Shown here: positions 5,420 through 20,145 of the stretch, one piece after another | How the letters are laid out: every line of letters begins with the position of its first letter | Position numbering within the stretch: position 1 is the stretch's first letter | Source of the DNA: Desulfosporosinus sp. FKB | Lineage (GTDB): Bacteria; Bacillota; Desulfitobacteriia; Desulfitobacteriales; Desulfitobacteriaceae | DNA: 64,000 nucleotides | Direction: 5' to 3' | NCBI RefSeq assembly: GCF_002196705.1 | Contig: NZ_NADJ01000015.1 | Coordinates: 62,001 to 126,000, forward strand | Made by a program: the position numbers and the translations under genes | Notes under the pieces: model-generated | Seen by the model: the letters and a program-made list of their open reading frames with translations, nothing else | Database searches by the model: none | Told to the model about the DNA's origin: nothing

Positions 5420-5533
5420 TCGAATATGATCATGTGCTCGGAGAGAGCAGGTATGAGGATAAGATTTGGAAAGAGTAGGCATGGTTCAAGATATTTACCC
5501 ATAGGATAATAAAAGCAATTGGGGGTGTAAGCA

Positions 5534-6283
5534 GTGGTTTTTTTGGTATTAACTCGACGAAGACTAATTGTGGTTTGCTCTTTTATCGCTATTTTGGGAG
5601 TTATTACCTTCGCAACAGCGTTTTCCTTAACGGCCCCTTCTTTAGTACGAACACCTGGAACCTATTATATGGCTCATACCCAGGAAAAAGTAGTTGCCTT
5701 AACCTTTGACGACGGTCCTGACCCCATTGACACGCCGAAAGTCTTGGAAATACTTAAGGAAAAAGAAGTTAGAGCAACATTTTTTGTTTTAGGGCAAGCT
5801 GTTAAGGACAATCCAAGGTTATTAAAGCGTTTAGCTAACGAAGGACATGAAATTGGAAATCACAGTTATGACCATGATTATAAACAACAACGCCTATTGA
5901 AAGAGATCAGTCAAACCGACGATGAGGTTTATGCGGCAACGGGTATCCATACTTATTTTTATCGCCCGCCTGGAGGTTTTCTAACGAAGGCGCAGTTGGA
6001 AAGCATTAAAAAGAATGGACATGTCGTTGCTCTCTGGAGTGTCGATAGTAAAGACTGGCGCAATCCCGGAGTTAATCAGATCGTTAAAAACGTCATGGAT
6101 AACGTTTTCCCGGGAGCAATTATACTTATGCACGATGGCGGTTATCATCGAACTCAGACTGTTAAAGCCCTGGGATTAATTATTGATTCTCTTCAAAGGG
6201 AAGGTTATCGAATCGTCACCTTAAGTGAACTGAAAAAATTTGATACAGAACGTAATTCGGAACGTAATTCAGAACTAAAGTGA
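5534..6283 (+). CDS. Polysaccharide deacetylase (NodB family)
   Basis: A 249-aa membrane-anchored NodB-type deacetylase that removes acetyl groups from amino sugars in cell-wall or related polymers. Residues about 7-30 form a single hydrophobic anchor. Catalytic motifs follow in order: LTFDDGPD (motif 1), GNHSYDHD (metal-binding H-x3-H motif 2), FYRPPGG (motif 3), LWSVDSKDW (motif 4) and ILMHDGG (motif 5). Start is GTG after GGGGGTGTAA. The overall form resembles the PdaB/spore-cortex or peptidoglycan deacetylases of spore formers; the exact substrate cannot be told. The tail has a small RNSE repeat (ERNSERNSELK). It ends four bases from a convergent gene. Confidence 0.9.
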   Translation: MVFLVLTRRRLIVVCSFIAILGVITFATAFSLTAPSLVRTPGTYYMAHTQEKVVALTFDDGPDPIDTPKVLEILKEKEVRATFFVLGQAVKDNPRLLKRLANEGHEIGNHSYDHDYKQQRLLKEISQTDDEVYAATGIHTYFYRPPGGFLTKAQLESIKKNGHVVALWSVDSKDWRNPGVNQIVKNVMDNVFPGAIILMHDGGYHRTQTVKALGLIIDSLQREGYRIVTLSELKKFDTERNSERNSELK

Positions 6284-6287
6284 GCAG

Positions 6288-7661
6288 TTAGGAACTCAAA
6301 TTAGAAATACCTTTGGACTTTGGATCATAGATTGATAATTGGTTTTTGCCATTGCGTTTTGAACAATAGAGAGCATCGTCGGCATGTTTGATGAGTTCTT
6401 CCGCTGTCATGGCGTGCAGCGGATAAACAGCCAGTCCCACCGAAATTGTGGTTTGCAGCAAAGGATTATTTTCCATAATTCTGACGCGCGTCGTTTCAAG
6501 CAACCTTTCAGCAATACTGACTGCTGCCTCGAGAGGTGTCTTAGGCAAGAGAATGACAAATTCATCGCCTGCATACCGCACCACAGCATCCCCTTCTCTT
6601 ACAGTTTCCAGTAAGAGTTTAGCAAAGAAACGCAAATATTGATCCCCGACGGGATGTCCAAAATGGTCGTTAATTCCTTTAAAGTTGTCACAATCAATAA
6701 AAAGAAGCGAAACTTTTCCCTTAGTGGTCTGGGCATGATTGATAGCGCGTTCTGTTAAATCAGTAAGAGAACGGGAATTCAAAAGACCTGTTAAGCTGTC
6801 CGTCTCTGACAGACAACGAACATGTTCATATAAGCGGGCGTTCGCTAAGGCGACACTCACTTGGTTGGCAAAGATCTGGGCTAATTGAAGATCATCTTTG
6901 CTAAAGGCATTTAAACTCAGCGTATAGATCCAAAGGACTCCAAAGGTTTCTCCTTCTAATTTAAGCGGAATTCCCATGACGGATTCGTCATCATAGGGAG
7001 TACCTGGAATGTGTATAGCCCTTGGATCGTGTTCAGCATCTCCGGAAAGGACTGCTTCACCTGTCGCTGCTATCCAACCTACCAAACCAAATCCCACTCG
7101 AGGATGGTTATTGAGAATACTGGTTAGTATATCGGGATCACTTTGACTCTCACGGGCACTAATTACCCGCAGCGATTTTTCTTCATCTTCCATTAAGTAA
7201 ATTGTACAGCCGTCTGCCTGAAACAAAGAAAAGATTTGATCAACCACTTGATTCGTTAAGTCACACAAATCAAGAGTTTTTGTTAAAGAGGTCGAGATAT
7301 CGGATAATGCTGACATTTCTGTTTCGTGTCGCTGAATTTGACGAATTGCATCGATCTCTCGATTAACAGCAATACCTATAAAGAGATAAACAAATGTATA
7401 GAGGAGCCATTGCAGCAGTGTTAGACGGTGTGTATGCTCATATAAAATAAGAAATGTTAAGCCAGAGGCGAGAATGATCTGAATTAATAAAAATTCCCAC
7501 GGGAAATACAGAGCAACTAGAGCTGTGATGAGGAAGAAAAAGGATACTAAAGAGATGCTTTGATCACCTAGGAGCATGATTATCATTGTAAGACCAAACA
7601 TGAAACAAATCATGCCTAAAGCCCAAATTTTATTTGGGCTCCATTTCTTCTCGCCTATCAC
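6288..7661 (-). CDS. Membrane GAF-domain diguanylate cyclase (GGDEF)
   Basis: A 457-aa c-di-GMP synthase. The first 110 or so residues hold four or so hydrophobic membrane segments. A GAF sensor domain follows at about 130-275 (LSDISTSLTKTLDLC to NARLYEHV), then a GGDEF domain at about 285-445. The active-site signature reads RYAGDEF, with Ala in the first glycine position, a variant still seen in active cyclases. The FIDCDNFKGINDHFGHPVGD segment that binds metal and GTP is intact. No clear RxxD inhibitory site is present upstream of the signature. The GAF ligand is unknown. Confidence 0.9.
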   Translation of the reverse strand: MIGEKKWSPNKIWALGMICFMFGLTMIIMLLGDQSISLVSFFFLITALVALYFPWEFLLIQIILASGLTFLILYEHTHRLTLLQWLLYTFVYLFIGIAVNREIDAIRQIQRHETEMSALSDISTSLTKTLDLCDLTNQVVDQIFSLFQADGCTIYLMEDEEKSLRVISARESQSDPDILTSILNNHPRVGFGLVGWIAATGEAVLSGDAEHDPRAIHIPGTPYDDESVMGIPLKLEGETFGVLWIYTLSLNAFSKDDLQLAQIFANQVSVALANARLYEHVRCLSETDSLTGLLNSRSLTDLTERAINHAQTTKGKVSLLFIDCDNFKGINDHFGHPVGDQYLRFFAKLLLETVREGDAVVRYAGDEFVILLPKTPLEAAVSIAERLLETTRVRIMENNPLLQTTISVGLAVYPLHAMTAEELIKHADDALYCSKRNGKNQLSIYDPKSKGISNLSS

Positions 7662-7773
7662 CGTTCGTCACCTCTGTTCTATAACTGGCAAAAGATAACT
7701 TGCATGTTTTATAGTGTCTACTTCTCTTTTCGCTGCTATAAATCCTGCAACAAGAATTTTATATCATTTTTAT

Positions 7774-8622
7774 TCACTCATTTTTTAAGAATCCTCTGCC
7801 GAGAACTTCCCCGGCATTGGATACGATCATAAAAGCTTCCGGGTCAACATCACGCACCGCTTGCTTTAAGCGACCTAGTTCCGGAAGGCTGACTACACAG
7901 ATAATAACATTTTTAGGCTCGTTAGAATAAGCGCCGCGGCCACTTAAAAAAGTTGCTCCTCTGCCTAAGTCCACCATAATCCGATCAACCAAAGCTTCCG
8001 GTTGATCGGATATAATCGTTATTGATTTCGAAGGAACGCCGCTTTGGATTATGTCGAGGACCCGCCCGTAGACAAAAAGATTAACTAAGGTATAGAGAGC
8101 CCTATTTGAACCTAAGATTGCCCAGGAAACCAAAATTATCAGGCTATTGATCGCTAAAGCAGACGTTCCCATGGGCACTCCATATCTTCGATGGATAACT
8201 TTCGAAATAATATCCGTGCCTCCCAGACTTCCGCCAAAACGAAACACAATACTTGAGGAAATCCCCGAAAACACACCGCCGTAGACTGCCCCAAGAAAGA
8301 TATCGTTTAACGGCACAGGATTGATACCTTTAAAGAGATCAAGGAAGATAGAAAATATAACTAATCCCCAGATGGTTTTAAAAATAAAGTCTTTGTTAAT
8401 TTCTCTCCAGCCTAAAACGAACAAGGGAATATTTAACAAAAAGGTCATTAAACCAATAGGGAGTTTTAATGTATAAAGGAGCAGCAGCGCTATGCCGCCG
8501 ACCCCTCCACCGCCTAGCCCAGAAGGGACGACAAAGGCTTGAACTCCATATGCGGCAATAATTGCCCCAGCAGCAATTGCCAAAATGCCGCCAATAGATT
8601 TAGTACGTTTCGATAACTTCAT
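7774..8622 (-). CDS. YitT family membrane protein (DUF161/DUF2179)
   Basis: A 282-aa protein with five or so membrane segments in the first 190 residues (for example GIALLLLYTLKLPIG and LVIFSIFLDLF). A soluble C-terminal DUF2179 domain follows at about 205-282, with SKSITIISDQPEALVDRI and GRGATFLSGRGAYS. YitT proteins are common in Firmicutes and their transport or signalling role is not settled. Start ATG at 8622 is preferred because GGAGGTAGGC precedes it; the ATG at 8634 has no ribosome site. It is downstream of the cardiolipin synthase gene on the same strand, separated by a terminator. Confidence 0.88.
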   Translation of the reverse strand: MKLSKRTKSIGGILAIAAGAIIAAYGVQAFVVPSGLGGGGVGGIALLLLYTLKLPIGLMTFLLNIPLFVLGWREINKDFIFKTIWGLVIFSIFLDLFKGINPVPLNDIFLGAVYGGVFSGISSSIVFRFGGSLGGTDIISKVIHRRYGVPMGTSALAINSLIILVSWAILGSNRALYTLVNLFVYGRVLDIIQSGVPSKSITIISDQPEALVDRIMVDLGRGATFLSGRGAYSNEPKNVIICVVSLPELGRLKQAVRDVDPEAFMIVSNAGEVLGRGFLKNE

Positions 8623-8737: not shown

Positions 8738-10162
8738 TTATAACAGTGGTGAAAATAAACGAGCAAAGGACTCTTTAAGACGTTCAGAATAAGGACGGGT
8801 TTGGAACACTTCAAGGTCGATACTTCGGGATTCACTCAAATCATTTTCGAAGTCTTGAACTAAGAGCAACGTTAATTTCTCATCATACATAAACGCGGAG
8901 ATTTCAAAGTCAAGGGAAAAACTACGTACATCCATATTAGCAGACCCTACAGATGCTAAAGTTTCATCAATGAGAAGAACTTTGGCGTGAAGAATTCCTT
9001 TCATATACTTATAGATTTTAACGCCTGCTTCGAGCAGTTCTTCAAGATAGGAGTTCATAGCCCAGTAAGTCACTTTGTGTTCCGGTACTCCTTGGATAAT
9101 GATTTGAACATCTAATCCTGACAGAGCTGCAGTCTTGAGAGCCATGATTAGACTTTCATCAGGTATAAAATAGGGTGTCTCAATTTTTATACTCTGCTTA
9201 GCCATGGTTATCGCTACGAAAAAGCCTTGGAGAATGGATGCACAATCAGAATCCGGTCCGCTGGCACCAATCTGAATAGGAAGTATATCAGGGATTTCAA
9301 CCCTAGGAAAGTAGTTTTCACCGTTTATCTCCTGATGAGTTACAGTATACCAGTCGTTTAGAAAGATACCTTGCAGGGTATGGACGGATTCCCCAGATAA
9401 TTTGAGATGAGTATCTCTCCAAAATCCAAGTTTCGGGTCACGAGAAAGATATTCGTCTCCAATATTGAGCCCTCCCATGTACCCCACATATCCGTCAATG
9501 ATTACAATTTTTCGGTGGTAACGTAAATTAAGCCTTGGTGTTAAAAAGGGAAAGCGTAATGGGAAATACCATTGAGCTTGGATTCCGGCTTGTCTCATGG
9601 TAGTCATGAAATTTCCAGCCAGGGATAGGCTCCCCACTCCGTCAAGGAGAACGCGTACTTCCACTCCTTCAGAAACTTTCTGAGAGAGAATTTTTAAGAT
9701 GTCGGCACCTATTTCATCATCCTTGAAAATGTAATAGCTCAGATGGATGTGATGGGCGGCATTTTCTAACGATTGAAGCAAAGCTTTAAATTTCTCCCGG
9801 CCATTGACGAGAACGTCAACTTTATTATGAATCCTTAAGTGGGCATAACCACTATTCATAAGGAGGTTAGCTAATTTAAGGTCTAAATTGTTATCTGGAG
9901 AAAAAGTTGGGTATTCATTCTTTGGGAAGGTATCGTATTCATTGATTCTTTGCTTTGGCCTATTTGTTTTTTGAGCCTTTTTCTTAAACAGTTTATTGCG
10001 TTGCTTTTGCGCAAACAGAATAAAAAGAAGAAAACCAAGAAGCGGCAGGAGACTCAGAATAAACAACCAGGTTACGGTTTTTCCCGGATCTTTATTTTCA
10101 AGAATAATCACAGTTCCCAAGAGCAATACTTGAACGCAAACCAATAATATGACCCATAACAT
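8738..10162 (-). CDS. cls: Cardiolipin synthase
   Basis: A 474-aa phospholipase D superfamily enzyme that condenses two phosphatidylglycerols into cardiolipin at the membrane. Two N-terminal membrane helices span about residues 1-20 and 30-50. The two HKD motifs are YHRKIVIIDGYVGYMGG (H216, K218, D223) and LHAKVLLIDETLASVGSAN near residue 390. The length is normal for the Firmicute enzyme. It appears to be a single-gene unit closed by the hairpin at 8640-8676. Confidence 0.95.
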   Translation of the reverse strand: MLWVILLVCVQVLLLGTVIILENKDPGKTVTWLFILSLLPLLGFLLFILFAQKQRNKLFKKKAQKTNRPKQRINEYDTFPKNEYPTFSPDNNLDLKLANLLMNSGYAHLRIHNKVDVLVNGREKFKALLQSLENAAHHIHLSYYIFKDDEIGADILKILSQKVSEGVEVRVLLDGVGSLSLAGNFMTTMRQAGIQAQWYFPLRFPFLTPRLNLRYHRKIVIIDGYVGYMGGLNIGDEYLSRDPKLGFWRDTHLKLSGESVHTLQGIFLNDWYTVTHQEINGENYFPRVEIPDILPIQIGASGPDSDCASILQGFFVAITMAKQSIKIETPYFIPDESLIMALKTAALSGLDVQIIIQGVPEHKVTYWAMNSYLEELLEAGVKIYKYMKGILHAKVLLIDETLASVGSANMDVRSFSLDFEISAFMYDEKLTLLLVQDFENDLSESRSIDLEVFQTRPYSERLKESFARLFSPLL

Positions 10163-10307
10163 ATTTCCACCGCCAGTTATAATTTTCAGCGAGTGCCTTA
10201 TTTATTGCTTTTCGTATTATGTGCACTCAAAGGGCATTTTAACTAGGAACTGAAAATCCATCACTATAAGCATAACTCTCTTTAGGAATTGCACCTATTG
10301 TTCTATC

Positions 10308-12959
10308 TTACGTCTTATTTTCATCTTTAATCAGTTCATCAATCCGCTGTTTTGCTTCTGGAGACAATGTGTCCATTAAATAATTACGTGGTCTTCTCTG
10401 TATTCCCTGATATTCCTGCTTTGTTCTTTCATTAGTCTCTTCGATCTCGGACTTAAGTTCTCTGGCCGATAATAAGGCACATCCTTCCCCCCTGATAATA
10501 ATCTGCTGTAAACCGTCTGATGTAGCAACGGTTATATTATACTTTTTCTGATTATCATGAGCGAATTTTTCAATATACTGGTCTGCTGTTTGTGCCTCCC
10601 TTGTATAAACCAGATGAATGTTATGATAGTCGATGACTTCTTCAAGATGCCCCTGAACGAGGTAAGCATCGAACACAACAATAATTTGGCATTTTCGAAT
10701 CCCTTGATAATTGCATAGACTATCCAATAATTTCATTCTGGCGCCGTCCATATTGCTATCCGTAAGTTCTTTGAGCTCAGGCCAGGCATGGATTACATTA
10801 TATCCATCGACAAGGAGATACTCTTCTTTGTTTACCTTCTCACTGCTTACTGAGACAAAGTCTTCGTAATAACTTTCGCGGGCTGTTTTGCGTTTTTTCC
10901 AGGCAGATTTTTTCCCTTGGTTCGCATAGAAGGTATTATTAATAATTTGGTCAATCTCATCTAAGCTAATCCACTTATCTTCTGAGTATGAGACACGGTT
11001 TGGGGCTATTTCTCCCGCTGAATCCTCTTTTTTCTGAAAATAGCTTTCAACATGCATGTAATCCTTCACGTTATCCCAATCCACCAAGAAGCCTGAGCCA
11101 TGTGCACAAAATACAGAACCCGTTGGATTATCAATGTCTCTTTCTGAATCATAGCCGATACTTTCAATGATCTCTTCCGCATTGTGGCATGGCTCATACC
11201 CTTTTAGGCTGCAGAAAAGCCTGCCAAGACCTTTCGTGTAGGCGATAACTTCTTTCTGATAATTTCTCATGGTAAGAACAGGGGCACTACCCACAAGAAC
11301 CGACATCTCGCCATTTGTCTGCGATAATTCGGATGTACCATGCATTTTCTCGATGTCCGTCATAGCTCTTCCTACCATTTTCACAGGGAGTTCCAGCTCA
11401 AAGGCATAATAAGGCTCCAGTAATATAGATTCTGCTTCCTTTAAACCTTGGCGTACTGCACGGTAGGTAGCCTCTCTGAAATCACCGCCTTCAGTATGCC
11501 TAGTGTGTGCTCTGCCTGAGACTAAAGTGATTTTCATATCTGTGATCGATGATCCTGTTAAAATTCCTTTGTGCTCTTTTTCTTCCAAATGAGTTAATAT
11601 AAGCCTTTGCCAGTTTTTACTTAAGGTATCCTCACTGCATTCTGCTCCAAACTTAAGACCACTTCCCGGCTCACCCGGCTCTAATAAAAGGTGAACCTCC
11701 GCATAATGGCGCAATGGTTCAAAATGTCCTACCCCTTCAACAATATTGGCAATCGTTTCTTTATAGACAATTCTTCCGGCATCAAAGGTCACTGGAACAC
11801 CAAAACGGCTTTGTATAAGATTCTGCAAAATTTCGATTTGCACCTCTCCCATGATCTGTGCCTGAATTTCTTGTAATTGTTCATTCCAGATAAGATGAAG
11901 TTCCGGCTCCTCTTCTTCAATCTGACGCAGTTTGGGAATCATTACTCTTGGGTCACTGCCTTCTGAAAGTATAATCTGATAAAACAATACGGGTTCCAAA
12001 ACCGGTGTGTTTGAAGCTTCTTCTATCCCTAAACCTTCTCCCGGTCTAGTTTGGCTGAGGCCCGTTACTGCCAAGACTGAACCTGCTTCTATTTCATTCA
12101 CTGCCTCGAATTTCTGTCCGGAATAAATACGAATTTGATTTACTTTCTCTTCCCAAATCCCATTCTTCAAAATATCTTTTACCTTTAGTTTTCCGCCTGT
12201 AAGTTTCATATGCGTGAGACGGTTTCCCTGCTCGTCTCTGGTTATTTTGAATATTTTAGCTCCGAATTGATTGGAATAGGTAGGTGCTATGGTATAGTCG
12301 GCAATGCCCTGCATGAATTGCTCAACGCCTTCTAATTTTAAGGCTGAACCGAAAAAGCACGGAAATACTTTCCGCTCCGTAATTGCCTTTTTGATCTGTG
12401 ACGTTTCAATATGATCTGTTTCCAGATAGGCTTCCATCATTGTTTCATCACACATGGCTAGTTGATCGTAAAAGCGGTCTGTCTTGACATGTTCAAATTC
12501 AACGCATTCATCATTCAATTGCTTTTTTATTTCTCTCATTAAATTGTCCTTATCCGTCCCATTCTGATCCATCTTATTGACGAATAAAAATACAGGTATC
12601 TGATACATGTCAAGAAGCCGCCACAACGTTTTCGTATGCCCCTGTACCCCGTCAGCACCGCTTATAACTAAAATGGCATAATCCAGTACCTGAAGCGTTC
12701 TCTCCATTTCAGCTGAAAAATCTACATGCCCTGGGGTATCCAGTAACGTAATCTGAGTCTCGTCTATTTCAAATATGGCCTGCTTCGAAAAAATAGTGAT
12801 TCCCCTTGCTCGTTCAAGCTCAAAGGTATCTAAATAAGCATTTTTATGGTCTACTCGTCCTAATTTGCCAATTTTACCGCTCAGATAAAGGATGCCCTCT
12901 GATAAGGTCGTCTTGCCCGCATCCACATGTGCTAATATTCCAATGACTAATTTCTTCAT
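10308..12959 (-). CDS. Ribosome-protection-type GTPase fused to a Rae1/YacP NYN ribonuclease
   Basis: An 883-aa fusion. Residues 1 to about 640 are an EF-G-like translational GTPase of the TetM/TetO/TetW type: GILAHVDAGKTTLSE (G1), DTPGHVDFSAEME (G3), VNKMDQNG (G4) and the later EF-G-like domains. After a lysine-rich linker (about 650-710) comes a complete NYN/PIN-like domain at 712-883. It contains LLVDGYNVIHAWPEL (D718, N721), IIVVFDAY (D764) and TVATSDG (D815), with an ARELKSEIE helix, which matches Bacillus Rae1 (YacP). Rae1 is an endoribonuclease that acts on mRNA in the ribosomal A site. Both halves therefore act at the A site, so the fusion should bring a nuclease to stalled or drug-bound ribosomes. 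Whether it confers tetracycline resistance cannot be told. Confidence 0.9.
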   Translation of the reverse strand: MKKLVIGILAHVDAGKTTLSEGILYLSGKIGKLGRVDHKNAYLDTFELERARGITIFSKQAIFEIDETQITLLDTPGHVDFSAEMERTLQVLDYAILVISGADGVQGHTKTLWRLLDMYQIPVFLFVNKMDQNGTDKDNLMREIKKQLNDECVEFEHVKTDRFYDQLAMCDETMMEAYLETDHIETSQIKKAITERKVFPCFFGSALKLEGVEQFMQGIADYTIAPTYSNQFGAKIFKITRDEQGNRLTHMKLTGGKLKVKDILKNGIWEEKVNQIRIYSGQKFEAVNEIEAGSVLAVTGLSQTRPGEGLGIEEASNTPVLEPVLFYQIILSEGSDPRVMIPKLRQIEEEEPELHLIWNEQLQEIQAQIMGEVQIEILQNLIQSRFGVPVTFDAGRIVYKETIANIVEGVGHFEPLRHYAEVHLLLEPGEPGSGLKFGAECSEDTLSKNWQRLILTHLEEKEHKGILTGSSITDMKITLVSGRAHTRHTEGGDFREATYRAVRQGLKEAESILLEPYYAFELELPVKMVGRAMTDIEKMHGTSELSQTNGEMSVLVGSAPVLTMRNYQKEVIAYTKGLGRLFCSLKGYEPCHNAEEIIESIGYDSERDIDNPTGSVFCAHGSGFLVDWDNVKDYMHVESYFQKKEDSAGEIAPNRVSYSEDKWISLDEIDQIINNTFYANQGKKSAWKKRKTARESYYEDFVSVSSEKVNKEEYLLVDGYNVIHAWPELKELTDSNMDGARMKLLDSLCNYQGIRKCQIIVVFDAYLVQGHLEEVIDYHNIHLVYTREAQTADQYIEKFAHDNQKKYNITVATSDGLQQIIIRGEGCALLSARELKSEIEETNERTKQEYQGIQRRPRNYLMDTLSPEAKQRIDELIKDENKT

Positions 12960-13191
12960 TATCTATGTTCAAATCCTTTATTCATTCATCTGATACTATT
13001 TAGCTTCAGGATATATAGGTTTTTAAGTCAATTCTTTAGATATTATGATAACAGTAAGTTTTGATTTTAACAATTTACCATATTATTATTTACATTATAA
13101 TTAAAAGCTTTAAGATTTCTATTTAATATTTTCTTAATATTGTCAAATTAGAAGTGATATTTATTCCTCATTATATTTTGAAAAATGTATT
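12960..13191. other. AT-rich intergenic stretch upstream of the GTPase-nuclease gene
   Basis: This stretch is rich in A and T and holds no open frame that I can support. It should carry the promoter and leader of the minus-strand GTPase-nuclease gene. I could not identify a convincing -35/-10 pair or a leader peptide. Confidence 0.4.
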
Positions 13192-14273: not shown

Positions 14274-15437
14274 TTACATTGCGTTTTTATAAATTTGAAT
14301 AACTTGATCAAGGGTTGCAGTTCGTGGATTCGTTAATTGACAAGCATCCAGCTTGGCATTGCCTGCCATAAGGGCAAAGTCCTCTTCTTTAACTCCCAGT
14401 TCTGCTAATCCTGTAGGAATACCAACATCCTGAGAAAGTGTTGCTATAGAGCTGAAACATTTCTCGGCAGCCTCTCTGGCTGAAAGCCCGGTAATATTTT
14501 CTCCCATGGCTTCAGCAATCTCCGCATAACGTTCGACATTGCCAATCATATTAAAACGTGAGACGTGAGGCAAAAGGATGGCATTGCAAACACCATGCGG
14601 CAAATTATAAAATCCTCCTAATTGGTGGGCCATAGCATGAACATAACCTAAACTGGCATTATTAAAGGCCATTCCAGCTAATAATTGAGCGTAAGCCATT
14701 TGTTCACGGGCTTCGAAATCTTCCCCATTGGCCACGGCACGACGCAAATACTTGCTAATTAATCTAAAGGCCATTAAAGCAGCCGAATCCGTTACAGGTG
14801 TAGCTATTGTGGAAACATAGGCCTCTACTGCATGGGTAAGAGCATCCATTCCGGTTGCAGCTGTTAAACTGGGTGGTTGTTTCATCATCAATAAAGGATC
14901 ATTAATAGAAACATTAGGTGTTACATGCCAGTCAACGATAGCCATTTTTATGTGTCTGGCTAAATCTGTAATAATGCAGAATCTTGTCATTTCTGCCGCC
15001 GTTCCTGCGGTGGTATTAATGGCAATCATTGGGGCCATCGGCAAAGGAGATTTATCCACGCCTTCATAATCATTAATTCTGCCGCCATTTCCGGCAACCA
15101 ATCCAATACCCTTTGCACAGTCATGGGAAGAGCCTCCACCAACCGAAACAATAAGGTTGCAGCCTTCTTTAGTGTAAATATCAAATCCATCATGAACATT
15201 TTTGTCGGTTGGATTTGGTTCAGCCCCCCCGTAAATGACAACTTCGAGGCCTTCTTTACTGATAATATCAGCAATTTCTTGAGCCATACCGATCTTTTCC
15301 AGGAATGCATCGGTTACTAAGAAGACTTTTTTACCGCCCAATAATTTTGCTTGTTTTCCGGTTTCTTGTACTGCTCCTGCTCCCATAAGGTTTACTGTTG
15401 GCATGAAATACCCATAGACTTGATGAATGATTCCCAT
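14274..15437 (-). CDS. Iron-containing alcohol dehydrogenase
   Basis: A 387-aa type III (Fe-dependent) alcohol dehydrogenase that interconverts alcohols and aldehydes with NAD(P). It has the nucleotide-binding GGGSSHDCAKGIGL, then DALTHAVEAYVST and GYVHAMAHQLGG with PHGVCNAILLPHV, which supply the metal-binding histidines. I prefer the ATG at 15437 (MGIIHQVYGYF) because GGGGGT precedes it. The ATG at 15452 adds five residues and has no ribosome site. Upstream there is a sigma-54 promoter at 15533-15548 and paired activator-like sites near 15790-15833, so expression probably depends on the sigma-54 activator at 30027-31898. Confidence 0.93.
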   Translation of the reverse strand: MGIIHQVYGYFMPTVNLMGAGAVQETGKQAKLLGGKKVFLVTDAFLEKIGMAQEIADIISKEGLEVVIYGGAEPNPTDKNVHDGFDIYTKEGCNLIVSVGGGSSHDCAKGIGLVAGNGGRINDYEGVDKSPLPMAPMIAINTTAGTAAEMTRFCIITDLARHIKMAIVDWHVTPNVSINDPLLMMKQPPSLTAATGMDALTHAVEAYVSTIATPVTDSAALMAFRLISKYLRRAVANGEDFEAREQMAYAQLLAGMAFNNASLGYVHAMAHQLGGFYNLPHGVCNAILLPHVSRFNMIGNVERYAEIAEAMGENITGLSAREAAEKCFSSIATLSQDVGIPTGLAELGVKEEDFALMAGNAKLDACQLTNPRTATLDQVIQIYKNAM

Positions 15438-15532
15438 GTTTTTAACCCCCATTTTCTTATTAGTTTTAGCATTTGCTTTTCTACGCTGAATTTTTGCCGG
15501 AATTTTAATCCGGATTCTTGACTGAATATTAT

Positions 15533-15548
15533 TGCAATATTAGTGCCA
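15533..15548 (-). promoter_or_regulatory. Sigma-54 promoter of the alcohol dehydrogenase gene
   Basis: The minus strand reads TGGCACTAATATTGCA. This matches the -24/-12 consensus TGGCAC-N5-TTGCA exactly, with ten bases between GG and GC. The predicted start of transcription lies about 80 bases upstream of the chosen ATG. Confidence 0.9.
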
Positions 15549-15599
15549 AAACTATCAGAAAATTTAGCTATTAATTTCACATGTCGTATTTCAACGAAA

Positions 15600-15690
15600 T
15601 CCTCAGGTTAAAGCCGAACATCCAGATTGCTGGAGGACGAAATCGGCCCCACCGTAGCAAGCGAAGGGAGTCCCGCCAACTTATTACCGC
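15600..15690 (+). repeat. Probable relic of the palindromic IS200/IS605-type element
   Basis: The segment contains TTAAAGCCGAACATC, which resembles CTAAAGCTGAACATC of the intact copies. Further on, CCCACCGTAGCAAGCGAAGGGAG aligns with the right-hand part of the copy at 54955. It is too diverged to fold as cleanly as the intact copies. It sits between the alcohol dehydrogenase sigma-54 promoter and its likely upstream sites. Confidence 0.4.
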
Positions 15691-15789
15691 TAGATTCTTA
15701 ATAATATAAATAACTAATGGGACAAAACCATAATCCTTACATCAAATTAATCTATAAAATTAATGTTAACTCCTCAAAATGGACTATTT

Positions 15790-15833
15790 TGGAACACTTT
15801 GCTTCGAACAAACGTTTTAAATTGGAGCACTTT
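15790..15833 (-). promoter_or_regulatory. Candidate upstream activating sites for the sigma-54 activator
   Basis: TGGAACACTTT (15790-15800), CGAACA (15805-15810) and TGGAGCACTTT (15823-15833). Read on the minus strand, TGTTCG followed by AGTGTTCCA closely matches the arrangement upstream of the activator gene at 29904-29922. They lie about 240-300 bases upstream of the promoter, a normal distance for enhancer sites. Confidence 0.55.
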
Positions 15834-15863
15834 TAGCAATAATGTGAATAGTTACAAAATAGC

Positions 15864-15909
15864 AAAGGGTTAATTTATTGATTTTTGCAAATCAATAAAT
15901 TAACCCTTT
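15864..15909 (-). terminator. Terminator at the end of the aldehyde oxidoreductase operon
   Basis: Perfect 21-bp arms at 15864-15884 and 15889-15909 (AAAGGGTTAATTTATTGATTT and complement) with a four-base loop. The stem overlaps the last codons of the phosphatase gene and marks the operon end. The tail after the stem has few T residues. Confidence 0.7.
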
Positions 15910-16521
15910 AGCGGTTTCCTTGACAACCAAATTGTTCATATAGTTTAATCTGTATCCGCAACTATCATGACAAAGTAAATTAACGCTGCCATAACTCTGT
16001 TCAAGTTGAAAAACATTCTCCAAGGGCATCCCAAGGACATGGCAGATGATTATTCTGTTTACGCCGGCATGAGCAATAATTAAAATTGTGTTTCCGGCAG
16101 ATTTCATAAGCCACTCAAACGCCGGAAGGACACGTTTGGAACAGTCTGTAAAGCTTTCACCCCGGGGCGGGACGAAATTTGCAATAGTTTGACCACGTTC
16201 TGCGAATTCCTTAGGGAACTTTGTTCTAATTTCCGAGAAAGTTTTCCCCTCCCAATCGCCCATGTTCAATTCCCGGAACTCCGGACAAAGGATGGGAGCT
16301 GCTGGGCGAGGAACTGCGATAATCTTCGCTGTTTGCTGCGCTCTCATTAAATCGCTGCAAAAAATATTATCGAACGATATGGGGCTAAACATATCCTTTA
16401 ATAATGAAGCCTGCTTTAGACCAAGAGGACTTAAGGGCAGATCAGTTTGACCAATATAACGTTTTTCACTCCCTAGGCCGATATCACCATGTCTGACCAA
16501 GTAAATTAATTTTTGCTTCAT
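15892..16521 (-). CDS. Histidine phosphatase family protein
   Basis: A 209-aa branch-1 histidine phosphatase (phosphoglycerate mutase/alpha-ribazole phosphatase fold). The phosphorylated histidine is H11 in YLVRHGDIGLG. The second catalytic region is ILIIAHAGVNRIIICHVLG, and PLSPLGLKQA is also typical. It is the last gene of the molybdenum aldehyde oxidoreductase operon, 24 bases after XdhC. The position suggests it processes a phosphorylated cofactor intermediate, but the substrate is unknown. Confidence 0.88.
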   Translation of the reverse strand: MKQKLIYLVRHGDIGLGSEKRYIGQTDLPLSPLGLKQASLLKDMFSPISFDNIFCSDLMRAQQTAKIIAVPRPAAPILCPEFRELNMGDWEGKTFSEIRTKFPKEFAERGQTIANFVPPRGESFTDCSKRVLPAFEWLMKSAGNTILIIAHAGVNRIIICHVLGMPLENVFQLEQSYGSVNLLCHDSCGYRLNYMNNLVVKETAKGLIY

Positions 16522-16545
16522 GTCTTCATGTCTCTCCAGGATCGT

Positions 16546-17655
16546 CTACTTTAAGGTTTGATCCATCTCCCTTTGAACTTTAATCAACTCGCTGAGAATA
16601 CTAACGGCAATTTCCTCCGGAGTTTCTGCTCCTATCTTCAGACCAATCGGGGAATGAAGATTTTGAAGTAATTCGGCTGGAACTCCCTCTTCCTCTAATT
16701 CAGCTTTTAAAGCTTTAACTCTTTTGCGGCTGCCGATCATGCCAAAATATGCTGCCGGTCGGCGAATCACTTTTTCCAGACATACCTTATCGTAGCGATG
16801 CCCTCTTGTGACAATTACCACAAAGGTTTGGGGAGTGATAGTGATCCTCTCTAAGGCTTGTGCAAAATCAGCGCAAATAACTGTGTCTGCCTCTTTAAAG
16901 CGAACAGAATTGGCAAAGGCCGGACGATCATCAACTACTGTGATCTCATACCCTACAATTTTAGCCATAATGGCAAGGGGGAGCGCTATATGACCACCAC
17001 CTAAAATCAACAATTGCACAATTGTTCTTTGCGGTTCTAAGAGTAACCGAAAGGATGGTTTGCTCACAGAGGTTTCGCAAGGCTCAAATTCAGAATCTAA
17101 ACTAATTAATAACGGCTGACACCGTTTAGCGCAAATTTTGCCACTTTCTTGAGCAACACGATTTAAACCATCTAAATGAAGATCGCCGCTTACTTCCCCA
17201 TTAGCCTTAATAACTAGTTTGTTCCCTATCAAATGTTCAGGAGCTGATTCGATTACGGTAACAAGGATAGGATTCTGATTTTCTTCCTCAAGTGCTGATA
17301 AATATTTTTGGTAGAGTTTTAATTGTTCGGCGGAGTTATGAAAACCCAAATAATCAATGAATAATCCCATGATTCCCCCGCAAACCATTCCCTCATCCTG
17401 AGCAATATCAGCGGTCATATTTAAGAAATACACCTTAGAAGTGCGTGCTGCTATGACATTGAGAGCTTCCCTCCTGGCTTCAGCCTCACCGCATCCACCG
17501 CCAATAGTACCTACGATTGTCCCGTCAGGAAAAACTAACATTTTAGCTCCGGGCTTACGAGGAGTTGAGCCAAGGACGCTGATGATTGTAACCATAGCAA
17601 CTTCAGTATTTTTCTCTAAGGCTGTTTTAAGTTTATAGATTATTTCATTTTCCAT
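16546..17655 (-). CDS. XdhC/CoxI family molybdenum enzyme maturation factor
   Basis: A 369-aa XdhC-type protein. XdhC proteins bind molybdenum cofactor, promote its sulfuration and insert it into hydroxylases of the xanthine dehydrogenase family. The N-terminal XdhC/CoxI domain (about 10-85) includes VLGSTPRKPGAKMLVF and GTIGGGCGEAEARREAL. A Rossmann-type second domain (about 210-345) has ILGGGHIALPLA and GMIGSRKRVKAL. It sits in the operon with the aldehyde oxidoreductase, which is the expected client. Confidence 0.93.
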   Translation of the reverse strand: MENEIIYKLKTALEKNTEVAMVTIISVLGSTPRKPGAKMLVFPDGTIVGTIGGGCGEAEARREALNVIAARTSKVYFLNMTADIAQDEGMVCGGIMGLFIDYLGFHNSAEQLKLYQKYLSALEEENQNPILVTVIESAPEHLIGNKLVIKANGEVSGDLHLDGLNRVAQESGKICAKRCQPLLISLDSEFEPCETSVSKPSFRLLLEPQRTIVQLLILGGGHIALPLAIMAKIVGYEITVVDDRPAFANSVRFKEADTVICADFAQALERITITPQTFVVIVTRGHRYDKVCLEKVIRRPAAYFGMIGSRKRVKALKAELEEEGVPAELLQNLHSPIGLKIGAETPEEIAVSILSELIKVQREMDQTLK

Positions 17656-17674
17656 TGTTTCCTACCCCTCTAGA

Positions 17675-18805
17675 TTAACTTAATAGTTCAGATAAAGGCA
17701 TGTTAATAATTTTTTCAATCTTTGTCTTAATCCACTCGGCATCCAAATATCGTCGTTGTATTTCCTTAAGTGCATCCGGGTTGTTTTGATGCTGCTCCAA
17801 GGGGCCTGCAAATCTGTCTTTAAGGGAAACAATCTGCTCGTCTTTAACAAGCTTATCAGCCAAATAGACGACTTCTTTTTCCGATATGGTCTGTTCAACG
17901 TTTAAACAAATGTCCGTATGTTCGGCCACAATTTTTGCAACCTCCGGGTAATTCGTGAGCATGCTTGCTCCAACTTGTGCATGGCGCGGTTTACCTTTGG
18001 CCAGATCATGCAATAAGGCTGCAGCCTTAATTAAGCCAAGGTTCATGCGGCATCCTGAACTTATTAAACAGCTGCCGATAGCGCAGCTAAGTGCGGCTAC
18101 TTGTTTACTGTGGTTAATGACCCTTAAGGGAGTTTCAGCATTCTTGGCTATCTCATAACATTCCTCTTCAGAGGGCAGCGGGGTATCGCCACAGTAAGCA
18201 AGCAGTTTACGGTAGTCTTCTGGTGTGTCCATGTCAAGTAGAATACCTGAGTCTTCAACATGGACTTCGACGGCATTATCATCATACTGCTCTAACATTG
18301 CTCTCAGTCCGCCTGGTTTATTCCATTTCAGAATGTCGTTAAAATAGCGGCTGGAAATTAGAGGAGGGTGTCCCCTCTTGCCTTGAAACGATGGATAAAC
18401 TATTCCCTCCTGCGTGGAAAAGAAAGTCTCTTCCAACATTTCAAGAGTGTGGCTTTTAATCATGGGATTATCGGCGGGTAAAAGAAAAAAACCAGACGTC
18501 TCAGGAGTGAGACTCTTAACTCCGGACCGGACTGAAGAAAACATCCCTTCGGAATAATTGGTGTTCACGATAATCCGAACCCCTAAATTTTCTAAAAGTG
18601 GAAACAGTTCATTCCCCCGATGCCCAACGACGACTCGAATATCCTTGAGGCCATAGCCCAGAAAACTATGAACAGCTTGTTCTATGACCGTAATCCCTCC
18701 CAAAGGCAACAATGGTTTGAATTGTTTCATACGAAACGAATATCCTGCAGCAACAATAATTGCTGCCAATACCCCCCTCTCCCGTCTGGCTTCTGCTTCA
18801 GTCAA
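17675..18805 (-). CDS. MobA/MocA-like NTP transferase fused to an HD domain (DVU_1551-like)
   Basis: A 376-aa two-domain protein. Residues about 10-200 are a nucleotidyltransferase (IIVAAGYSFRMKQFKPLLPL, the NTP loop; later PADNPMI) related to MocA, which adds CMP to molybdopterin. Residues about 225-345 are an HD phosphohydrolase (HSKQVAALSCAIG, LLHDLAKGKPRHA). It overlaps the preceding CoA-ligase-like gene by four bases. I assign it to the NTP transferase family met beside such aldehyde oxidoreductases (DVU_1551 in Desulfovibrio) from memory of that gene set. A role in making the cytosine dinucleotide form of the cofactor is likely. Confidence 0.85.
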   Translation of the reverse strand: MTEAEARRERGVLAAIIVAAGYSFRMKQFKPLLPLGGITVIEQAVHSFLGYGLKDIRVVVGHRGNELFPLLENLGVRIIVNTNYSEGMFSSVRSGVKSLTPETSGFFLLPADNPMIKSHTLEMLEETFFSTQEGIVYPSFQGKRGHPPLISSRYFNDILKWNKPGGLRAMLEQYDDNAVEVHVEDSGILLDMDTPEDYRKLLAYCGDTPLPSEEECYEIAKNAETPLRVINHSKQVAALSCAIGSCLISSGCRMNLGLIKAAALLHDLAKGKPRHAQVGASMLTNYPEVAKIVAEHTDICLNVEQTISEKEVVYLADKLVKDEQIVSLKDRFAGPLEQHQNNPDALKEIQRRYLDAEWIKTKIEKIINMPLSELLS

Positions 18806-20145
18806 GGCCGGACACCCCTTCTCCGGTCTTGAATCTGTCGCTTAGCACTGCTTTTGGGGGCTCTTACCTCGGAAGTTACGTTAAAATTAAGGTTAACCTG
18901 CAAACTGTTGGTTTGCAGTCCGGCCTTGAGGATGGGGATTTTGGCGAGAGATTGTAAAAGTGGCTGTTTTATGTCGGCATCAACTGGTTTCCTCAAGAGA
19001 ATATTGAGGTTTAACTGGTTTTGCTTTGCCTCTTCAGTAAGCGTAACTTCGAAGTCAATAATATCCCCAAATTCAAAGAGAACCTCGTCAAAATCGGAGA
19101 TCGTCAAATAATCCGTCTCATTCAGAAAAACCCGATCTCTGGATTTTACCCGTTCTAATCGCTTTAGGACCGTGTTACAGGCGCAGATGCCAGGTATAAA
19201 TCTTGAAATATCGCCGGTTCGATAACGAACTAAGGGCATTGCTGATCTGGTTAGTGTCGTAAAGACGATTTCCCCTGGCCGCCCGTCTATCACAGGTGTT
19301 CCTGTCAGCGGATCGATAATTTCAAAATATAGGTCTGCTTCTCTCAGGTGATAGCCACAGAAGCCCTCACATTCAATGCCGCCGCCTAAACCCATCTCAG
19401 TCATACCATAATGATTAAACACCTGACACCCCCAATATCTTTGCAGTTCTTTGACAACAGTTAATGGTACATAATCGGTACTTAACAAGACGCTTTTGAT
19501 GTTTAGAGAAGATGATTCGTCCCGTGAATCAATAAACCTTGCTAAATTCAGCACTTGAGTGGGTATACCGACAAGAACATTGATTTTTTCCCGTTTTATT
19601 TGTTCAAAGGCGGCTTCCGGATTACTAACGATTCCGTGAACGCTTCCTGTTACGCCTGCTCTTGCTAAACCTAAACGCAGTAAGTCACCGACACTTCCAG
19701 TCGTTTCACCGGGTAGCAAAATCAAGACTCTATCCCCTGGTTTAATCAAGGTGAACATGCCATGATGAAAAAAATCGATGGTTAGTTCTTGATCAGGTTC
19801 ACTAAAGAAGAGGCGTTTGGGTTTTCCCGTTGTACCGGAAGTCTGGAGGGTAACGATTCTGCTGATGTTATCTTGGGAAACACATAAGAAATCCAGGGGA
19901 TAATCTTTGAGGTCTTCAGACGTGGTAAAAGGCAGTTTGTTTATGTCTGCTAAACTGGTAATCTTACAATCCAATCCCTGATAGAGACGGCGGTAAAATC
20001 TGCTGCTAGCGCTTACCCAAGCAATAGTTTCCTGCAGTTTGTTCAACTGGTAATCCTCGATCAGCTTTCGCGTCAGTCTTCCCGAACAATTACCGGTAAT
20101 TTTCTCCTGTACCCATGGTTCAAGCGGGGTAACATTTATGGCCAA
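18802..20145 (-). CDS. PaaK-like AMP-dependent ligase (DVU_1553-like)
   Basis: A 447-aa member of the adenylate-forming superfamily, similar to phenylacetate-CoA ligase. The ATP-binding motif is TLQTSGTTGKPKRLFFS. The core also has FNHYGMTEMGLGGGIEC and RPGEIVFTTLTRSAMPLVRYRTGDIS. No free aromatic catabolic genes are near, so the substrate is more likely an intermediate of the cofactor or protein modification carried out by this operon than phenylacetate. It follows the radical SAM gene by three bases and overlaps the NTP transferase gene by four bases. Confidence 0.85.
   Translation of the reverse strand: MAINVTPLEPWVQEKITGNCSGRLTRKLIEDYQLNKLQETIAWVSASSRFYRRLYQGLDCKITSLADINKLPFTTSEDLKDYPLDFLCVSQDNISRIVTLQTSGTTGKPKRLFFSEPDQELTIDFFHHGMFTLIKPGDRVLILLPGETTGSVGDLLRLGLARAGVTGSVHGIVSNPEAAFEQIKREKINVLVGIPTQVLNLARFIDSRDESSSLNIKSVLLSTDYVPLTVVKELQRYWGCQVFNHYGMTEMGLGGGIECEGFCGYHLREADLYFEIIDPLTGTPVIDGRPGEIVFTTLTRSAMPLVRYRTGDISRFIPGICACNTVLKRLERVKSRDRVFLNETDYLTISDFDEVLFEFGDIIDFEVTLTEEAKQNQLNLNILLRKPVDADIKQPLLQSLAKIPILKAGLQTNSLQVNLNFNVTSEVRAPKSSAKRQIQDRRRGVRP

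Follow-up and report, generated by a model that had tools for sequence, protein, structure and literature searches.

Does a gene that couples a TetM-like translational GTPase to a Rae1-type nuclease encode a tetracycline-resistance protein, or a factor that brings the nuclease to the ribosome? The question is raised by a locus of Desulfosporosinus sp. FKB, analyzed here within a 64,000-nucleotide stretch of contig NZ_NADJ01000015.1 (positions 62,001–126,000 of the forward strand; hereafter the window, to which coordinates refer unless another record is named). The locus, at 10308–12959 on the minus strand, encodes in one 883-residue protein an EF-G/TetM-like translational GTPase followed by a YacP/Rae1-type NYN nuclease, as established from the open reading frame (ORF), its translation and Pfam. 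With moderate confidence, we read this protein as a housekeeping factor that works in association with the ribosome, a TetM/EF-G-like GTPase whose C-terminal domain is Rae1, an A-site mRNA endonuclease. The fusion seems to take the place of ordinary Rae1.

Domain organization of the fused protein

The frame runs on the minus strand from an ATG at 12959 to a stop codon that ends at 10308, and plus-strand frame 1 across the same interval contains many stops. The GTPase (G) domain (residues 4–222; 12294–12950; Pfam GTP_EFTU) carries the P-loop AHVDAGKTT and the motifs DTPGH and NKMD, and is followed on the same strand by domain II (residues 233–305; 12045–12263; EF-G_D2), domain III (residues 322–392; 11784–11996; EFG_III, with 26.8 bits slightly below the curated cut-off of 27), domain IV (residues 395–509; 11433–11777; EFG_IV) and domain V (residues 513–593; 11181–11423; EFG_C). 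Loop III at the tip of domain IV (residues 482–494, GRAHTRHTEGGDF; 11478–11516) aligns with GLYYSPVSTPADF of TetM/TetO. Behind domain V lie a C-terminal extension (residues 594–640; 11040–11180) with the consensus SVFCAHGxGFxVxWDxVxxYMH, a flexible linker of low conservation and low predicted confidence (residues 641–714; 10818–11039), and the NYN_YacP nuclease domain (residues 715–876; 10332–10817).

The NYN_YacP match scores 187.2 bits against a cut-off of 24.6 (E 2.8e-55) and covers profile positions 1–164 of 166; the domain is therefore complete. The motifs DGYN (718–721), VFDAY (762–766), TAD (791–793) and ATSD (812–815) are all present, with the aspartates D718, D764, D793 and D815, which we take to be the catalytic residues of the NYN/PIN-like fold. 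By sequence, the top solved relatives are TetO/TetM for residues 1–591 and Bacillus subtilis YacP (PDB code 5mq9) for residues 714–854; the NYN part alone matches 5mq9 with an E-value of 1.2e-26, and the acidic residues align. The first-pass annotation, which had described a single frame joining a TetM/TetO-like GTPase to a complete Rae1-like NYN domain with DGYN, VFDAY and ATSD kept, is thus borne out in each of these points.

An AlphaFold2 model of the protein has a mean predicted local distance difference test (pLDDT) score of 83.6 and a predicted template modelling (pTM) score of 0.60. The NYN domain (residues 711–860) reaches a pLDDT of at least 87 in 10 of its 15 ten-residue blocks, the lowest block being at 54, and the linker falls below 50 at residues 650–665 and 677–708, where it is predicted to be disordered. 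The 50 matches listed from a fold search with the whole model are of the EF-G/EF-2 type and none is titled YacP, TetM or TetO; the kinship of the two halves to the NYN and Tet proteins therefore rests on sequence.

The fusion is a conserved family

The same domain order was found at 102 loci, comprising 22 (the window's own included) and 80 from named genomes, with L073 being a duplicate of L048. At 102 of 102 loci a single ORF (829–1085 residues from stop to stop) extends across the two halves, which rules out accidental read-through and a misassembled junction. The 21 full-length relatives in the smaller set are 51–93% identical to the window protein. The named-genome scan gave at least 80 loci, distributed over Lachnospiraceae, Oscillospiraceae, Ruminococcus, Anaerovorax, Fusibacter, Intestinimonas and others. 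The first-pass annotation had proposed a search for this domain order in other proteins and an alignment of the C-terminus with Rae1; the former reveals a conserved family, and the latter an intact acidic set.

Residue conservation was read from an alignment of 98 proteins, the window protein included, whose rows were pre-selected on the P-loop pattern. It omits the later fusions L216–L220, as well as three proteins that do not show the pattern at their start, L063, L124 (which starts near a contig end) and L135 (which reads GKMT); a further set, A2, consists of the window protein and 59 of the 77 usable named loci. All 98 proteins share the four NYN aspartates as well as D13, K16, T17, T55, D74, G77, K129 and D131 of the GTPase, with H78 kept in 97. 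Conservation peaks in domain IV, with a mean major-residue frequency of 0.81 versus 0.63–0.67 in the other folded parts; the corresponding values are 0.29 for the linker (residues 641–712) and 0.18 for the last 23 residues. The tip loop is conserved as HxKHTEGGD (H485 in 96, Lys at position 487 in 91, H488 in 97, T489 in 98 and G491 in 98 of the 98), and S615, F617, G621 and W628 of the C-terminal extension are invariant. In L135, a fusion of Ruminococcus flavefaciens FD-1 at about 10001–12553 of its locus, the P-loop reads AHVDSGKMT, with Met at the position where Thr is identical in the 98 aligned proteins; this exchange may weaken GTP binding.

The surroundings of the gene vary. At the 101 loci compared, none of the gene families located up to four genes from the fusion recurs more than 11 times, so that a conserved operon partner is lacking; the commonest family, at 11 loci, consists of ABC-transporter ATPases, as identified by eye. 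Five of the 22 loci are chromosomal, given the size of their contigs (3.2 to 4.9 Mb), and two further copies come from plasmid records 252 and 518 kb long. Among the 1,059 plasmid records that matched, only two cover at least 80% of the query, both large and typed as non-mobilizable.

A role as an anti-phage defence protein was rejected, since PADLOC-DB 2.0.0 gives no family at E ≤ 0.001. Two records from human faeces entitled 'Bacteriophage sp.' contain the full fusion, MT835563.1 (L228) at 5421–8015 and MT835514.1 at 15276–17792. The other genes of MT835563 encode MgtE, LysR, aminotransferase and mandelate-racemase-type proteins; the record thus looks like bacterial DNA and may be mislabelled, which makes a phage-borne copy doubtful.

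Distribution of fused and free YacP

The genome that contains the window (5.12 Mb, 40 contigs) has no second NYN_YacP match at E ≤ 0.1. In a phylum draw of 398 genomes, 219 have the NYN_YacP domain, and a match to the GTPase half at E ≤ 1e-100 was obtained for 36 in a scan that scored three candidates per genome. The fusion is carried by 28 of these 36, as confirmed from ORFs in 27 and judged from frame length alone in G090; among the matches listed, every one of the 28 has a single NYN match. Two genomes with two matches, G205 and G300, do not bear on the fusion, because neither has a GTPase match at 1e-100.

Within the window's own family, the NYN domain occurs in 30 of 45 genomes, 29 times in open frames of at least 767 residues and in G400 in a frame of 297. 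The family f76 was sampled with one genome per genus, giving 120 genomes whose forms were judged mainly by open-frame length; it is probably a Lachnospiraceae-like family, since in both trees described below a Butyrivibrio locus is the partner of its member G131. The domain is present in 108 of these genomes, as a fusion in 99 and as free YacP in nine; the former number includes three copies cut at contig ends (G440, G529 and G532) and G476, where the gene is in two overlapping frames. The break in G476 (L223, 717–2199) falls between the linker and the NYN domain and reflects either a frameshift or an assembly error. In family f129 the domain occurs in 10 of 80 genomes, nine times in frames of at least 780 residues and once cut at a contig end. 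No genome in these samples clearly has both the fusion and free YacP; the second matches in G473 and G510 sit at contig ends.

Free YacP shares with the fusion the NYN_YacP domain and, in the B. subtilis protein (PDB codes 5mq8 and 5mq9), the DGYN/VFDA/TAD/TSD acidic set. It differs from the fusion in that it lacks a GTPase, is mostly about 170–200 residues long among the matches listed, and has a usual genomic position. At 30 of 32 free-YacP loci, yacP stands directly behind rlmB as judged by BLAST, and sigH comes next at 26; of the others, four show no sigH in the fetched stretch, and L207 and L213 have neither gene. Twenty-two of these loci (L010–L038) are the highest-scoring ones and not a random draw. 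Among 22 genomes with the fusion, by comparison, rlmB is directly followed by sigH with no yacP between them in 19; rlmB lies elsewhere in L146 and L155, and G220 has only a weak RlmB relative, without which the figure is 19 of 21. The window genome (L143) conforms to this arrangement, with the sigH frame 298 nucleotides after rlmB and no yacP.

Phylogeny of the two halves

All 52 fused rows of the GTPase tree form one clade, with a support of 99 in the Shimodaira–Hasegawa-like approximate likelihood ratio test (SH-aLRT), and the GTPase-only relatives in the tree, which lack the NYN domain (e.g., G306 and G178), lie outside it. The tree was built with a quick method, long branches were flagged for a few of its rows, and the 25 named fusions in the trees were hand-picked. 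In the NYN tree, which omits L217 and L218 for want of the DGYN pattern (L218 reads DGFN), 50 fused domains, seven free YacP of f76 and the broken L223 separate from the other 25 free YacP with support 99/90. The seven (L207–L212 and L222; G454 and G450 are the two of the nine f76 free-YacP genomes that are absent from the fetched set) nest within the fused NYN clade with support 97/84, and six of them sit behind rlmB. This position suggests that in L207–L212 and L222 the domain left the fusion and regained the old operon slot. The simplest reading would be a single fusion, after which, in one sub-lineage, the nuclease domain went back into the operon, with the GTPase as a separate gene, a reading rendered uncertain by the shortness of the NYN alignment (171 columns).

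Relationship to tetracycline ribosome protection proteins

The GTPase half shares with TetM and TetO (PDB codes 3j9y and 4v6v) the five EF-G-like domains, aligned over residues 1–591. It differs from them in the absence of their YYSPVS tip, in the added NYN domain and in its score: the best NCBIfam model is tet_protect (NF012153), which gives 431.2 bits versus an equivalog cut-off of 775. When the 22 members of set A1 were compared with NF012153, the best E-value was 5.8e-134, close to the 5.5e-129 of the window protein, so none is likely to come near 775 bits. At the tip of TetM stand Ser508-Pro509-Val510, of which Pro509 overlaps the bound tetracycline (PMC7456112). This tripeptide aligns with Thr486-Arg487-His488 of the window protein. 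Judged by its sequence, the fusion would not serve tetracycline protection as such, and the suggestion made at first pass that the gene is probably not an ordinary tetracycline-resistance gene is supported by the replaced tip loop, the score below the cut-off and the presence of the fusion in 99 of the 120 f76 genomes.

Database labels differ among copies, that of Agathobacter rectalis being a TetM/TetW/TetO/TetS-family protein in RefSeq and that of Monoglobus a translation factor GTPase family protein. With 99 of the 120 sampled f76 genera carrying the gene and at least one copy labelled as tetracycline resistance, such annotation could inflate resistance counts in gut metagenomes.

The fusion architecture was already known, since Atkinson 2015 (BMC Genomics 16:78, PMC4342817) reported a Tet-NYN fusion in ten Clostridiales species. 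It likewise joins a Tet-subfamily GTPase to a YacP-like NYN domain in the same broad bacterial group, and ribonuclease-based resistance is suggested. In contrast to that account of ten species and resistance, the family analyzed here is widely conserved among Clostridia, seems to stand in for free Rae1 and has a tip unlike that of TetM. In searches of the open-licence content of PubMed Central, Atkinson 2015 was the one report of the fusion to turn up, and the wide distribution, the replacement of yacP, the single clade and the tip loop were not found; a 2018 paper on Rae1 distribution may mention the fusion.

GTPase-only relatives

Relatives of the GTPase half that lack the NYN domain have 651–678 residues, apart from one shortened frame, and the closer ones are 43–48% identical. 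An HxxHTxGGDF loop is present in all seven that were read at 43% identity or above, and a variant of the C-terminal extension in six, the seventh (L177) being cut short. In f76, such a GTPase (43–48% identical) occurs in five of the nine free-YacP genomes versus none of the 12 genomes without YacP (Fisher p 0.006), or in four of nine when G533 with its shortened frame is left out (p 0.02). A 34% identical relative in G502 was not counted, and would make it six of nine; the tests ignore relatedness and rest on few independent lineages.

Two genomes, G357 and G312, have GTPase-only relatives (44–46% identical) and no YacP match among the matches listed; this GTPase apparently can do without Rae1. 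Large plasmids of Ligilactobacillus salivarius (169–360 kb) carry GTPase-only relatives of about 48% identity, such as NZ_CP020859.1 at 153995–155899, and nine of the ten copies among the matches listed bear a TetM/TetW/TetO/TetS-family tetracycline-resistance label.

Proposed mechanism and alternative explanations

Rae1 is described as a translation-dependent mRNA endonuclease that acts at the ribosomal A site (PMC6613710). Taken together with the anatomy of the fusion, this description suggests that the GTPase would recruit Rae1 to paused ribosomes and time its action there. In the sequence of events that we propose, the GTP-bound five-domain part would bind a paused or stalled ribosome at its factor site, and the conserved loop of domain IV would probe the decoding centre. 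Domain IV would be withdrawn on GTP hydrolysis, and the NYN domain, tethered by about 70 residues behind the C-terminal extension, could then enter the emptied A site and cut the message, a cleavage modelled on the proposal for free Rae1. The truncated message would pass to rescue and decay. Ribosome binding, A-site cleavage, the order of the steps and any coupling to GTP hydrolysis are what we infer, and the first-pass idea of a single protein that would empty the A site as well as cut the message is plausible. The reading draws on the domain order kept at all loci, the conserved GTPase and nuclease residues, the well-kept domain IV, the linker predicted to be disordered, the lack of clear co-occurrence of fusion and free YacP, the missing yacP between rlmB and sigH, the single clade of fused GTPases and, in f76, the association of the GTPase-only form with free YacP. 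The physical link of Rae1 to an EF-G-like factor hints at the route by which a translation-dependent nuclease could arrive in the A site, and makes the fusion a single-protein system for asking whether GTP hydrolysis times mRNA cleavage.

A bolder version, possible and put forward only tentatively, is that of a GTP-driven A-site mRNA endonuclease that would be the no-go-decay factor of many Clostridia, freeing a paused ribosome and cutting its message within one GTPase cycle, with HxKHTEGGD reading the decoding centre. SmrB and Cue2 are no-go decay endonucleases on stalled ribosomes, and the cutting of mRNA at a stalled ribosome is also the job proposed for the fusion; to our knowledge, their domains are unrelated to those of the fusion and include no built-in translational GTPase. 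The A-site reading of YacP-type NYN domains is said to have arrived with Rae1 in 2017, in work by Leroy in the EMBO J, after the 2015 report of the fusion.

Several observations weigh against a Rae1 delivered and timed by its GTPase. The fusion is dispensable, as it is patchy outside f76 (30 of 45 genomes with the domain in the window's family, 10 of 80 in f129), and its halves can come apart, since the free YacP of f76 branch inside the fused clade. In the phylum draw, three of the eight GTPase-only genomes (G357, G312 and G334) have no YacP match; the remaining five of eight compare with a background of 52% (p 0.72), so that a phylum-wide dependence of the GTPase on YacP is not supported and the GTPase may also work independently. 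Domain IV and the Rae1 domain presumably cannot share the A site, which means that their steps would be sequential or take place on different ribosomes, and the mutual placement of the domains is not predicted, given the pTM of 0.60.

In an alternative that we consider rather doubtful, the GTPase would serve elongation, back-translocation or recycling in its own right, with Rae1 merely riding along and hydrolysis and cleavage uncoupled. It is favoured by the existence of GTPase-only relatives with the same tip loop, some of them in genomes without a YacP match (G357 and G312), by the linker, which is long, variable and predicted to be disordered, and by those f76 genomes that hold GTPase and YacP as separate genes; within f76, however, the GTPase is missing from all 12 YacP-less genomes, and 99 of the 108 genomes with the domain have it in fused form. 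That the protein protects ribosomes from antibiotics, with the RNase domain adding a new resistance mechanism, is improbable. This suggestion is in print in Atkinson 2015 (PMC4342817), and it agrees with TetO/TetM as closest solved relatives by sequence, with tet_protect as the best model, with the RefSeq label of the A. rectalis copy and with the two copies on plasmid-typed replicons. It is at odds with the score of 431 bits against 775, the replacement of the Ser-Pro-Val tip by the conserved HxKHTEGGD, the occurrence in 99 of 120 f76 genomes drawn one per genus, the lack of a conserved neighbour in 101 loci, and the mere two of 1,059 matching plasmid records that cover 80% or more of the query, both large and typed as non-mobilizable. 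Least probable is a maturation factor for stable RNA (rRNA or tRNA) delivered to ribosomes, an older idea for YacP-like NYN domains that is cited in Atkinson 2015 (PMC4342817); Rae1 is described as an A-site mRNA endonuclease that depends on translation (PMC6613710), and because fused and free YacP are so closely akin, a switch to another substrate would be the less economical assumption. The recruitment and timing of Rae1 by the GTPase is the reading that we prefer.

Genomic surroundings in the window

A possible ribosome-binding site, AAAGGA (12974–12979, minus strand), can be read from the sequence 14 nucleotides ahead of the ATG of the fusion gene, a weak spacing. The upstream neighbour on the same strand is a GPR1/FUN34/yaaH-family gene, and the downstream neighbour encodes a PLD-domain protein. 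A terminator-like hairpin (13219–13196) lies between the fusion gene and the GPR1/FUN34/yaaH-family gene, and is weak evidence because three such sites were found versus 2.3 expected. No structured RNA was detected in the window at Rfam gathering scores. Elsewhere in the window, at 17675–18805, a single frame encodes a MobA-like NTP transferase domain with an HD domain behind it, and adjoins an XdhC/CoxI-family gene (16546–17655) and an AMP-binding enzyme gene (18802–20145).

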